A DNA stretch of 64,000 bases, taken from the NCBI RefSeq assembly GCF_000328525.1, contig NC_019964.1, forward strand, positions 2,666,001-2,730,000, read 5' to 3'. The DNA comes from Halovivax ruber XH-70 (GTDB lineage: Archaea > Halobacteriota > Halobacteria > Halobacteriales > Natrialbaceae). Positions 11,637 to 43,186 of the stretch are shown one piece after another; positions within the stretch are counted from its first letter, which is position 1; every line of letters starts with the position of its first letter. Under the pieces are notes generated by a model. It saw only the letters and a list, made by a program, of their open reading frames with translations, did not search any database and was not told the origin of the DNA. Position numbers and translations under genes: made by a program.

Positions 11637-13013
11637 ATGCTCGATCGGACCTACGTGCGCGAACACCCCGAAGAAGTACGGACAGCGCTGGCGAACAAGG
11701 GGGTCGATCTCGATCTCGATCGCCTGCTCGCAGTCGACGAGGAGTGGCGCGAGCTCAAAGCCCGCGGCGACGACCTCCGCCACGATCGCAACCAGGTGAG
11801 CCAGCGGATCGGCGAACTCAAACGCGACGGCAAAGACGAAGAAGCGCAAGACGCCATCGAGCGCTCGAACGAACTCAAAGCCGAACTCGAGGAGGTAGAG
11901 CAGCGAGCGGACGTCCTCGAAGCCGAGCTCGAAGAAGGGCTCCTCCGGCTCCCCCAGATCCCCGCCGACGAGGTTCCCGTCGGCGCGGACGAAAGCGAGA
12001 ACGTCGAACGTCGGCGCGAAGGCTTCGACGACCTGCGCGACCTGCCAGACGAGATCACGCCCCACTACGACATCGGCGAAGACCTGGAACTGATCGACTT
12101 CGAGCGCGGCGCAAAGGTCTCGGGCGGCGGCTTCCAGTTCCTCAGAGGGGACGGCGCCCGACTGGAGCACGCGCTGATCCAGTTCTTCCTCGATGTCCAC
12201 CGCGAGAACGGCTACGTCGACGTGCTCCCACCGATTCCGGTCAACTCGGCCTCGATGCGTGGGACCGGCCAGTTCCCGAAGTTCACCGAGGACGCCTACC
12301 GCCTCGGCGCTGACAACGACGAGCCGTACGACGACGATGACCTCTGGTTGCTCCCGACCGCGGAGGTACCGGTCACCAACATGCACCGCGACGAGATCTT
12401 CGTCGACGAGGACCTCCCGCTGAAGTACGCCGCCTACTCGCCGAACTTCCGACGCGAGGCCGGCGAACACGGCACCGAGACTCGCGGCTACGTCCGCGTC
12501 CACCAGTTCAACAAGGTCGAACTCGTCAATTTCGTCCGCCCGGAGGAGAGTGACGACCGCTTCGAGGGGCTCGTTGCGGAAGCCGAGGAGGTCCTCCGCC
12601 GGCTCGAACTACCCTATCGCATCCTCGAGATGTGCACCGGCGACCTCGGCTTCACCCAGGCGAAAAAGTACGACATCGAGGTCTGGGCGCCGGGCGACGA
12701 CATGGACGACGGTCCCGCGGAGGGCGGGCGCTGGCTCGAGGTCTCGTCGGTCTCGAACTTCGAAGACTTCCAGGCCCGCCGCGCGGGCATCCAGTACCGC
12801 CCCGAACGCCACGAGTCGGCCGAGTACGTCCACACCCTGAACGGCTCCGGCGTCGCCGTCCCGCGCGTGATGGTCGCCATCATGGAGTACTACCAGAACG
12901 ACGACGGCACGATCACCGTTCCCGAGGCCCTGCGCCCCTACATGGGCGGACAGGAGGTCATCGAGGGGCACGACTCGGTTGGCGAGAGTGCGTTAGGCGA
13001 GAGCGACGACTGA
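11637..13013 (+). CDS. serS: Serine--tRNA ligase
   Basis: A 458-residue class II synthetase charging tRNA-Ser. The N-terminal long coiled-coil arm (about residues 30-100) is clear. Motif 2 is FRREAGEHGTETRG, motif 3 lies in NGSGVAVPRVMVAIMEYYQ, and TAEVPVTN is the serine-site segment. It is the common bacterial-type SerRS, not the methanogen type. The stop codon lies inside the first copy of a repeat that recurs downstream at 13199 and 13346. A tRNA-Ser(GGA) gene is in the same window. Confidence 0.97.
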   Translation: MLDRTYVREHPEEVRTALANKGVDLDLDRLLAVDEEWRELKARGDDLRHDRNQVSQRIGELKRDGKDEEAQDAIERSNELKAELEEVEQRADVLEAELEEGLLRLPQIPADEVPVGADESENVERRREGFDDLRDLPDEITPHYDIGEDLELIDFERGAKVSGGGFQFLRGDGARLEHALIQFFLDVHRENGYVDVLPPIPVNSASMRGTGQFPKFTEDAYRLGADNDEPYDDDDLWLLPTAEVPVTNMHRDEIFVDEDLPLKYAAYSPNFRREAGEHGTETRGYVRVHQFNKVELVNFVRPEESDDRFEGLVAEAEEVLRRLELPYRILEMCTGDLGFTQAKKYDIEVWAPGDDMDDGPAEGGRWLEVSSVSNFEDFQARRAGIQYRPERHESAEYVHTLNGSGVAVPRVMVAIMEYYQNDDGTITVPEALRPYMGGQEVIEGHDSVGESALGESDD

Positions 13014-13400
13014 GCGCAGCGAAGGAGTCGGTCTCGGAATGGCGAGCGGGGAACGAAGTGACCCGTGAGCGGCGAGGATTGAGCGAGTGCGAGGTTCTCA
13101 CGTCCGTTCGAACCTCGGCGGTGCGAACGGGGAGGTACGACCCGTGAGCGAAGCGAAATCCTCGAGGCGGAGCGGCGACCGCCGGGAGCCGCGGAGTGGG
13201 CGAGAGCGGCGACTGAGTGGAACGAAGGAGTCGGTCTCGGAACGGCGAACGGGGAACGAAGTGACCCGTGAGCGGCGAGGCCGAGTGAGTGCGAGATTCG
13301 GAACGAAGGCGAGCCGGAGCGGCGACCACCGGGACCCGCGGAGCGGGCGAGAGCGGCGACTGAGCATAGCGAGAGGGTCGATTGTACGGATACCGACATC
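12996..13400. repeat. Tandem repeat derived from the serS 3' end
   Basis: Three imperfect copies of a unit start at 12996, 13199 and 13346. Copy 1 begins within serS and contains its last codons (Gly-Glu-Ser-Asp-Asp-stop). Copies 1 and 2 agree over about 80 bp with a handful of mismatches, and copy 3 is truncated after about 30 bp. A second sub-repeat (CGGAGCGGCGACC type) recurs near 13170 and 13316. The core (GGGGAACGAAGTGACCCGTG) is the reverse complement of the core in the tRNA-flanking repeats. No gene is supported between 13014 and 13484. Confidence 0.85.
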
Positions 13401-26810: not shown

Positions 26811-27097
26811 GGGCACGCGAGCACGGGAACGGCTGGTCGACACTAGAATATCGAACCGCGAACGAACGCAGTGAGTGAGCGGGCCGACGACTGATGTGGA
26901 GGGCGCGGCGCGAAGCGCCGCGCCGGAACGGAAGGAGGAGTACTTTTGATCGACCTTTTACCGAGTGTCGTCGCGGCGTGGTGCGCCACTGGCGCACCCG
27001 CCGCGACACGAACGTGGTTCGAGAGGCGCGTTGCGCCTCTCGTCATCACGGAAGACGCAACGCGTCTTCCGAACGACAGTGTAAAAGGTCGGTTTAC
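26811..27097. repeat. Right copy of thermosome-flank repeat with hairpin array
   Basis: Homologous in blocks to 21679-21891. Four strong hairpins lie in a row: 26902-26924 (10-bp stem, loop GAA), 26970-27007 (stem with a small bulge, loop ACT), 27020-27042 (10-bp stem, loop GTT) and 27049-27071 (10-bp stem, loop AAC). The array is enclosed by CGACCTTTTAC (26951-26961) and its inverse GTAAAAGGTCG (27081-27091), except the first hairpin, which lies outside. On the minus strand the hairpins form the 3' UTR of the thermosome mRNA. Confidence 0.85.
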
Positions 27098-35951: not shown

Positions 35952-36848
35952 TTACCGGAACCGCTCTTCGAGGGCGACTTTTACGATGGATTTCGCGATG
36001 GCGGCGCCACCCTGGAGCGGATCGAGTTTGGTCTCGCCAGCGCGCTCGCCGTACGCGATCGGATGTTCGCGGATGGCGTACCCGCGCATCAGGGGACGGA
36101 TCAGCAGTTCCGCGGAGAGGCCAGTGTTCTCGGTCCACTCGATGTCCTCGACGACCTCGCGGCGGTAGGCGCGCATCCCCGTCGTGGTATCGTGGACGCG
36201 GGCACCCATCAGGACGCTCGCGACGGCGGCGAAGGCGTGGTTGCCGAAGCGGTTGAACGCGGGCATCGCCTCGGCGCCGTGGTAGAGGCGGTCACCGCTG
36301 ACGACGTCGTAGCCCTCGTTGATCAGCGCGAGGAACTCGGGCAGTTGCTCCATCGGATAAGTGTCGTCACAGTCGGTCGTGACGACGATCGGTCGATCGG
36401 GCGTCAGGATCGCCTCCCGGACGGCGACGCCGTAGCCCTGGGGCTCCTGTTCGATCACCGTAGCGCCGCGCTCGCGGGCGATCTCGGGGGTCCGGTCACT
36501 GGAACCGTCGACGCAGACGACCTCGGCCTCGCCGTCGGTCACCTCTGCGATGTCGTCGAGGACGGTGCCGATGGCCGCCTCCTCGTTGTAGGTGCCCATC
36601 ACGACGCTTACGTCCGCGAAGGTGAACACGTCCTCCGTCGTGGCCGTCTCGACTCCAGTCCCTGTATCGTCCGTCGCGGCTCCAGTCCCTGTATCGTCCG
36701 TCGCGGCTCCAGACCCGGCATCGGCCGTCTCGGTGCTCGCCCCCTCCTCGGCCGTGCCGGAATCGGTGTCTACCGCCGGCGATCCGTCAGCGTCGGTCGG
36801 TTCTTCGTCGGCGCCTCCGTCCGTCGAGTCCGCGTCGAGGGTACTCAT
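35952..36848 (-). CDS. GT2 glycosyltransferase (dolichyl-phosphate hexose synthase-like)
   Basis: A 298-residue protein. Residues 1-75 are a low-complexity acidic/Thr-rich tail with near-identical repeats (AATDDTGTG twice), encoded by tandem 27-bp DNA repeats at about 36655-36715. Residues 75-298 are a GT2 catalytic domain: VSVVMGTYNEEAAIGTVLDDI, VCVDGSSDRTPEIA and VVTTDCDDTYPMEQL (DxD). No C-terminal membrane helices. It resembles enzymes that make polyprenyl-phosphate sugars, the donor for GT39 enzymes such as the convergent gene. Operator 33 nt upstream. Confidence 0.87.
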   Translation of the reverse strand: MSTLDADSTDGGADEEPTDADGSPAVDTDSGTAEEGASTETADAGSGAATDDTGTGAATDDTGTGVETATTEDVFTFADVSVVMGTYNEEAAIGTVLDDIAEVTDGEAEVVCVDGSSDRTPEIARERGATVIEQEPQGYGVAVREAILTPDRPIVVTTDCDDTYPMEQLPEFLALINEGYDVVSGDRLYHGAEAMPAFNRFGNHAFAAVASVLMGARVHDTTTGMRAYRREVVEDIEWTENTGLSAELLIRPLMRGYAIREHPIAYGERAGETKLDPLQGGAAIAKSIVKVALEERFR

Positions 36849-42692: not shown

Positions 42693-43104
42693 CGCCAGGA
42701 CAGGGATTTGAACCACGCGAAGACGGTCGGCTCGCTCAGCTCACGGTTACACCGTTCGCATCGCGGTTCTCACTTCGTTCACGGGTCGTTTCACTCCCCG
42801 GTCACACAAACGAGGCCTCGCGTGCGCTCGGCATCGCACTCGTTCCGAACCGCGCTCCGCTCGCCGCTGCGACTTCTCTACTTCAAATCCCTTTGTCGGG
42901 TATCTGCCGCTCACGGTATTGTTCGCGGCAGAATACGCCAGGACAGGGATTTGAACAGATGCGAGACGTTCCGGGCGTTCGGCCTCGTTTCACTCGGCCG
43001 TTCCGGGGCTGCGACTCGCGTGTTCAAATCCCCTCTTCCAGCGTTTTCGCGTCACGGGTTGTTCGCGACGCTACGCGTCGCTCACGGGTCTGTGACGCGA
43101 AAAA
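42693..43104. repeat. Tandem array of tRNA-Ser 3'-end copies with shared core
   Basis: The terminal 21 bases of the tRNA-Ser gene (discriminator, acceptor 3' strand, T-arm) are repeated exactly at 42693-42713 and 42936-42956, before the true copy at 43105-43125. Each unit ends with an inverted T-arm-like sequence (TTCAAATCCCT near 42885, GTTCAAATCCC near 43022). Block 42749-42864 matches 185-300 near tRNA-Pro at about 97%. The 5' halves of the tRNA are absent, so these are not tRNA genes. 42517-42692 holds further related low-complexity sequence and no gene. Confidence 0.88.
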
Positions 43105-43186
43105 CGCCAGGACAGGGATTTGAACCCTGAATCCCGAAAGGGAACACGCTTTCCAGGCGTGCGCCTTACCGTTCGGCCATCCTGGC
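43105..43186 (-). tRNA. tRNA-Ser (anticodon GGA)
   Basis: Minus-strand acceptor GCCAGGA pairs with TCCTGGC, followed by discriminator G. Anticodon stem with loop CTGGAAA gives GGA, a long variable arm (TTCCCTTTCGGGA) confirms a type II tRNA, and the T arm is CAGGG-TTCAAAT-CCCTG. No intron, no encoded CCA. Confidence 0.96.

Follow-up and report, generated by a model that had tools for sequence, protein, structure and literature searches.

In Halovivax ruber XH-70, 20 of 42 tRNA genes have their own 3' end repeated downstream (at least 19 of 26 nucleotides, versus 3% for permuted flanks), and this copy closes a folded unit that recurs across haloarchaea. Tentatively, and with somewhat less than even confidence, we propose that haloarchaea possess an undescribed cassette-like system in which tRNA T-loops would be the insertion sites and a folded hairpin the recombination site, with polar, non-coding arrays at about half of the tRNA genes and each tRNA kept intact by the copy of its 3' end. 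An earlier note on the window (the whole 64,000-nucleotide stretch analysed here, NC_019964.1, positions 2,666,001 to 2,730,000) had named four loci at which a gene's own 3' end is duplicated in its flank, and had suggested a common gene-end copying process. The duplication is borne out at serS, tRNA-Pro and tRNA-Ser, but the flank of the thermosome gene holds no end copy above chance. The suggested process is similarly divided, being supported for tRNA genes but not for protein genes, where serS and one other locus of 564 carry such a copy. More specifically, the pattern is genuine at tRNAs, whereas serS only resembles it.

The tRNA module: layout, fold and distribution

Two tRNA genes on the reverse strand of the window exemplify the pattern. 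The tRNA-Ser(GGA) gene (43105-43186) is the parent of two downstream units, the first of which (42936-43104) contains a match to the module covariance model R2 (42947-43031) and ends in a copy of the tRNA 3' end (42936-42955), while the second (42693-42935) ends in a second copy at about 42693-42712. Behind tRNA-Pro(TGG) (373-446) lies a tail unit (129-372) with a diverged 3'-end copy at about 129-149. Interiors can be common to different tRNAs of one genome, as seen between the tRNA-Pro unit and the second tRNA-Ser unit (87% identity over 225 nt) and between Gly and Glu (96% over 53 nt). The copy typically lies 78-163 nt, and at most 386 nt, downstream of its tRNA, and the units are about 86-200 nt long, non-coding and without terminal inverted repeats.

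All copies occur in one layout, in which the tRNA is directly followed by a T-rich stretch, then hairpin 1 and then hairpin 2. The latter is composed of GGATTYGAA, 7 nt, AGTCGC, a core, CGTCT, 8 nt ending in G, and finally TTCRAATCC with the acceptor 3' strand; its end is a copy of the 3' end of that particular tRNA, from about G53/T54 to N73. Identity between copy and tRNA is 0.92-1.0 from T54 to N73 and at most 0.61 thereafter (3' boundary from the 66 best copies), and the base before TTC in the copy is G in 81 of 81 cases. A single unit can hold both an inverted and a direct copy of the tRNA end, and the Y of the 5' arm covaries with R57 of the T-loop in 77 of 81 modules. Although the acceptor part of the copy does not pair within the module, its match to the tRNA is almost perfect. 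GGATT, AGTCGC, CGTCT, GGTTC and AATCC are invariant.

The fold was evaluated on 33 modules of equal length, in which the proposed positions are paired in 98.3% of cells. The covariation score is 0.325 versus 0.108 after shuffling, with 78 versus 22 two-sided changes, and the signal is destroyed by sliding the pairing partner. The informative pairs (the 7-nt with the 8-nt spacer, the core pairs and the T-loop pair) had been left free by the search pattern, and RNAalifold recovers the same fold unprompted. G-U pairs outnumber C-A mismatches by 17 to 4. The antisense arm was also considered as part of a splicing (bulge-helix-bulge) structure or as a guide RNA; neither motif was seen by inspection, and both readings were set aside.

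The module is distributed among haloarchaea. The pattern of its fixed parts, compared against 84,980 species genomes, matched at least 120 stretches, and 80 of 80 among the matches listed are haloarchaeal by title; among 81 pattern matches, 76 follow a tRNA in the sense orientation, with many isotypes represented. With model R2, 14 of the 15 Halobacteria sampled were found to carry 6-29 modules, while the 85 genomes from the rest of the phylum had none; a module is present in 55 of 61 relatives. Genomes that lack it are G025, G032, G033, G037, G038 and G148. Against Rfam 15, with E up to 1, only tRNA was returned, plus one chance match below its gathering score. Viral contigs and phage records gave no match, and an origin of the module from viruses or phages was accordingly rejected. 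Two matches were found on plasmids, one behind tRNA-Val and the other inside an array of tRNA genes, so that the structure was not encountered away from tRNA genes, where an attachment site borne by a virus or plasmid would be expected. On one plasmid of Haloarcula halophila (NZ_CP119561.1, L321:2930-3075), in a cluster of more than 20 tRNA genes, an apparent tRNA-Cys is split exactly at G53/T54 by a module-like hairpin and has no copied tRNA end. No description of the loop words or of tRNA-tail duplications was found in the literature searched, which mostly excludes subscription journals; the RepRanger survey covers archaea, with no haloarchaeon among them (PMC12306157).

The serS array and the GA-loop hairpin family

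The serS gene (seryl-tRNA synthetase, 458 aa) occupies 11637-13013 on the forward strand, and its last codons and TGA stop lie within the 5' arm of the first hairpin of a tandem array. The array is made up of unit 1 (12996-13198, 203 nt), unit 2 (13199-13345, 147 nt, with about 65 internal nucleotides absent) and a partial unit 3 comprising only the first 35 nt (13346-13380). As the earlier note had claimed, each begins with the final codons and stop of serS, namely GGCGAGAGCGRCGACTGA, the last 15 coding bases plus the stop. Units 1 and 2 match at 76 of 82 nt (93% over the first 82 nt), whereas 300 mononucleotide shuffles of the downstream 500 nt gave at most 42 of 82 as their best 82-nt match. 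The protein tail VGESALGE(S)DD is a conserved feature of SerS from haloarchaea; thus the copied bases are true gene sequence and not a repeat mistaken for gene.

Each of the two longer units contains two hairpins on the forward strand. The stop-codon hairpin of unit 1 (12998-13036; RNA fold -19.5 kcal/mol, also folding as DNA) contains the TGA stop, and that of unit 2 (13201-13239) has an identical fold at -17.2 kcal/mol; over 39 nt it reads CGAGA.CGAC..CT..GC(GCA)GC..AG..GTCG.TCTCG, with two tandem G.A steps and the TGA in the 5' arm. The GA-loop hairpins that follow are GCGGG-GA-AC-GAA-GT-GA-CCCGT in unit 1 (13043-13070; match to covariance model R1 at 13044-13068, 30.5 bits) and ACGGG-GA-AC-GAA-GT-GA-CCCGT in unit 2 (13246-13273; R1 match 13247-13271, 33.3 bits). 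Their core GGGGAACGAAGTGACCCGTG (13049-13068 and 13252-13271) is, in agreement with the earlier note, shared with the tRNA flanks: cores of this type also occur in sense orientation behind tRNA-Pro and tRNA-Ser. An inverted repeat, GAGGTTC/GAACCTC, lies at 13088-13116 (forward strand), and its centre is inverted in the sister species G003. For the array as a whole, fold energy gives z-scores of -2.1 as RNA and of -0.1 and +0.9 as DNA, and energy alone is therefore weak evidence.

The serS feature is shown to be a tandem array of hairpin-bearing units in which the gene end travels with the duplication or deletion of units; the end of serS is copied because its stop codon sits inside the duplicated hairpin. 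The array varies between sister species. G002 has unit 1 only, with a better paired arm; the array of G003, which displays a small inversion relative to this genome, is shorter by 77 nt between two GGCGAG repeats, the stop codon being thereby moved; and G001 and G004 lack the array. Recombination between short repeats would account for these differences, and serS-type arrays more broadly may, though this is the weaker suggestion, grow and shrink in the same manner with no tRNA-specific step.

Membership of serS in the tRNA module was considered and rejected, since R2 gives no match there. The link between the serS and tRNA units consists only of a shared hairpin style, that of a wider hairpin family. 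Novelty rests with the tRNA arrays, and the serS array alone would be a case of REP-like hairpins. A general copying process for the ends of protein genes is not supported by the statistical test that the earlier note had asked for. Codon-based gene calls were made in this analysis over 41 separate stretches, which total about 864 kb or 27% of the genome, and flanks of tRNAs and hairpin clusters were covered in addition. Of the 564 genes, the last 24 nt are copied downstream in serS only, the rest being at chance level. Centring the comparison on the stop codon adds one protein gene with a short tandem copy (L085:5799-6425, forward strand), in which the stop-codon region is copied directly 3' of the gene at 21 of 24 nt.

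The wider family has the core GA-RY-GNA-RY-GA in a variable stem and is intergenic, lying on the sense strand of the 3' flanks of tRNA and protein genes. In the 864 kb analysed, complementarity of both inner pairs is seen in 51 of 229 intergenic cores versus 59 of 712 genic ones, and this is the unbiased support for pairing; the inner pairs themselves (AC/GT 27, GC/GC 21, GT/AC 4) were counted in cores preselected as paired. The first position of the outer stem is paired in 82% of cases versus 38% of controls, and perfect 6-bp stems show no general enrichment in intergenic DNA. GAACGNAGTGA is present in about 10-90 copies in most haloarchaeal genomes versus 0-10 in other genomes of the phylum.

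At a cut-off of E about 0.1, covariance model R1 gives at least 74 matches in this genome (one of them added separately), which fall into 45 clusters; this is a lower bound, 150 of 2305 first-look candidates having been scored. Because selected hits went into the building of R1, only its position and strand statistics are independent; the E-values of both R1 and R2 are rough. A sense-strand R1 match lies within 300 nt downstream of 14 of 42 tRNAs (0.115 expected at random), compared with one on the antisense strand, and all 15 multi-hit clusters are strand-pure. Seventeen of the 29 clusters that have no listed tRNA are found behind a same-strand protein gene, about half of these beginning within approximately 10 nt of the stop codon. 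At one of the 29, cluster 2792272, there is a possible intron-containing tRNA 150 nt upstream.

Several further hairpins and repeats were observed. The 3' flank of the thermosome gene is hairpin-rich and includes a GA-loop hairpin (26857-26881, forward strand, opposite to the thermosome gene; 28.1 bits) as well as a variant of a second 3'-end element of about 115 nt. This element, in which CTTTTTCATCGAAGTTTTT is paired with AAAAAGTTCGTT near the stop codon, stands beside a GA-loop hairpin behind several genes and may be a terminator; its sites are 26880-27093 in the window and G000:C1 near 2375587, 2524245, 2781993, 1873995, 3124893, 2144715 and 760551. Arrays behind genes identified by eye as malic enzyme (L055:13071-13260), acyl-CoA dehydrogenase (L097:10154-10572), aminopeptidase-like (L043:12367-12603) and purH-like (L133, near G000:C1 695820) start with GAG-TAG-CG or a variant, and GAGTAGCG recurs inside the first two, like the stop region of serS. 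Repeated arrays of GC-rich GA-loop hairpins were also seen in the sister species G001 (L064:500-2500), and the window contains a 27-nt tandem repeat at 36644-36733 (3.3 copies, 88% matches).

Unit turnover and its possible origins

Copy number differs between this genome and G003 at 12 or more of the 28 tRNAs compared. In flank alignments, the two species differ precisely by whole units at Phe, Glu, Cys, Lys-CTT, Asp, Met, Gln and Arg-CCT: the sequence that comes after the tRNA in one species comes after the tRNA-end copy in the other. In all five cases with a shared older unit, the extra unit is the tRNA-proximal one. As judged from these alignments, whole units have been gained or lost precisely between the tRNA and older units. 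Tandem duplication is also evident, the tRNA-Met array of G003 including a recent duplicate (97% over 94 nt). Across genera, modules of the same isoacceptor resemble one another slightly more than they do those of other isoacceptors (p=0.006 and 5e-5, from pairs that are not independent), so that some modules are inherited and not newly inserted. Because half of the tRNAs have no module, and because sister species differ at so many, the module is dispensable at any one tRNA. A separate observation concerns tRNA-Ala(CGC), directly behind which lies a segment of about 4.4 kb (L096:7750-12146; G000:C1 about 2432750-2437146) that is absent in G003; almost no haloarchaea-like coding sequence was called in it, and G003 carries a tRNA module in its place.

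The reading that we favour, and to which we give an even chance, is site-specific insertion or recombination at the T-loop by a putative recombinase, with folded hairpin 2 as the site. A unit would enter at the T-loop with hairpin 2 serving as the recombination or integration site, the end of the tRNA would be duplicated at every insertion, and the arrays might afterwards be expanded or trimmed by tandem recombination between these copies. Such insertion would explain why the boundary is G|TTC, why the arrays are polar, why the tRNA stays intact and why the arms covary. However, precise loss by recombination between the 20-bp copies yields the same end states, and only the polarity, seen at five loci, favours gain. 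Moreover, the sense-strand bias and the excess of G-U over C-A also fit a transcribed RNA function.

A transcribed trailer role is thus the main rival, compatible with the bias in strand, although we consider it distinctly less probable than insertion at the T-loop. Under this explanation the modules and GA-loop hairpins would be transcribed 3' structures acting in termination, 3'-end protection or tRNA processing, with selection keeping the fold while units turn over by ordinary recombination between tRNA-end copies. The 14:1 sense bias at tRNAs, the strand-pure clusters, the compensatory changes in the module stems, the tolerance of G-U on the sense strand, the T-rich stretch directly after the tRNA and the hairpins that begin at the stop codons of several protein genes all argue for such a role. 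It is less easily reconciled with the half of tRNAs that have no module and the many differences between sisters, or with an acceptor part that is unpaired and nevertheless a near-perfect match to the tRNA.

A Cas1-type (casposase-like) or other integrase might instead cut the final 20 nt of the tRNA in a staggered fashion, and this segment would then be duplicated around each unit as CRISPR repeats are around new spacers. We regard this as unlikely, even though the exact duplicate of 20-21 nt reaching to the tRNA 3' end and the tRNA-proximal polarity fit it, and the casposase of Aciduliprofundum boonei recognises the same T-loop motif, TCAAATC, near tRNA-Pro (PMC6614799). In that casposon the motif lies 8 bp upstream of the 14-bp duplication and so is not itself duplicated (PMC6614799); in addition, the units here have neither terminal inverted repeats nor genes, and the tRNA-specific inverted arm GGATTYGAA would be left unexplained. 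During replication, gene ends might also be copied by template switching, the example given in the earlier note, or by fold-back; this could produce inverted and direct end copies in one unit and the small inversion in the serS array between species, but is very improbable given that fixed spacings (7 and 8 nt), the AGTCGC and CGTCT motifs and interiors shared across families are unlike repeated independent accidents, that protein genes hardly show end copies, and that precise tRNA-proximal gain or loss of units within a fixed, covarying architecture fits site-specific insertion better.

If site-specific insertion at the T-loop is correct, nearly all haloarchaea contain fast-changing arrays that are anchored at tRNA genes and whose tRNA-specific arms covary with the tRNA; these would represent a new, damage-free form of DNA insertion at tRNA genes, would possibly be related in logic to integrons and CRISPR arrays, and would also provide new strain markers. 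Should the role lie in RNA, they would constitute a widespread, conserved archaeal trailer structure that has so far had no family. Either reading offers a testable target in genetically tractable haloarchaea.

Comparison with known systems

The PATE and IS605-type elements of haloarchaea are likewise small and non-coding with near-terminal palindromes, but no gene-end duplication is reported for them (PMC3119063), and in this genome no core loop is found in the flanks of the only Y1 transposase gene. REP/BIME sequences with their RAYT transposases share with the present hairpins a short intergenic form, many copies, frequent clustering and a position in 3' flanks near stop codons. REP palindromes are defined by a tag, GTAG or CGTC, at their base (PMC3733652), whereas the units here have no such head, carry the loop GA-RY-GNA-RY-GA and include a tRNA-specific copy. 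A link to REP/RAYT was rejected, as the abundance of the units does not track Y1 transposases: genomes G003, G004, G028 and G029 have no PF01797 match and yet contain 31, 30, 16 and 11 tRNA modules, respectively.

The T-loop class of tRNA attachment sites, used by tyrosine-integrase elements, shares the identity block from the T-loop to the tRNA 3' end. In the haloarchaeal arrays, however, no element lies between the copies, only a conserved hairpin pair; the units are in tandem, and one family is adapted to about 20 tRNAs per genome. Casposons also insert at tRNA 3' ends with duplication, and the T-loop motif TCAAATC is recognised there too, but the casposon criterion of terminal inverted repeats with cas1 and polB does not describe these non-coding units of about 100 nt, and the block duplicated here includes TTCRAATCC, whereas the casposon leader motif lies outside the duplication (PMC6614799).

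Integron arrays likewise differ by whole units in a polar fashion at one array end, and have a G before TT at the boundary. An attC site consists of a paired outer box, an unpaired spacer, a paired inner box and a variable end, and the integron R-box consensus is GTTRRRY. Hairpin 2, in its consensus fold, has the same order of parts, including a mismatch in the inner paired box, and it is from this layout that the likeness to attC derives; the R box itself is not matched, the modules having GTTCRAA. Unlike integrons, the arrays described here contain no cassette genes, and their fixed site is the tRNA T-loop, with roughly half of all tRNA genes occupied.
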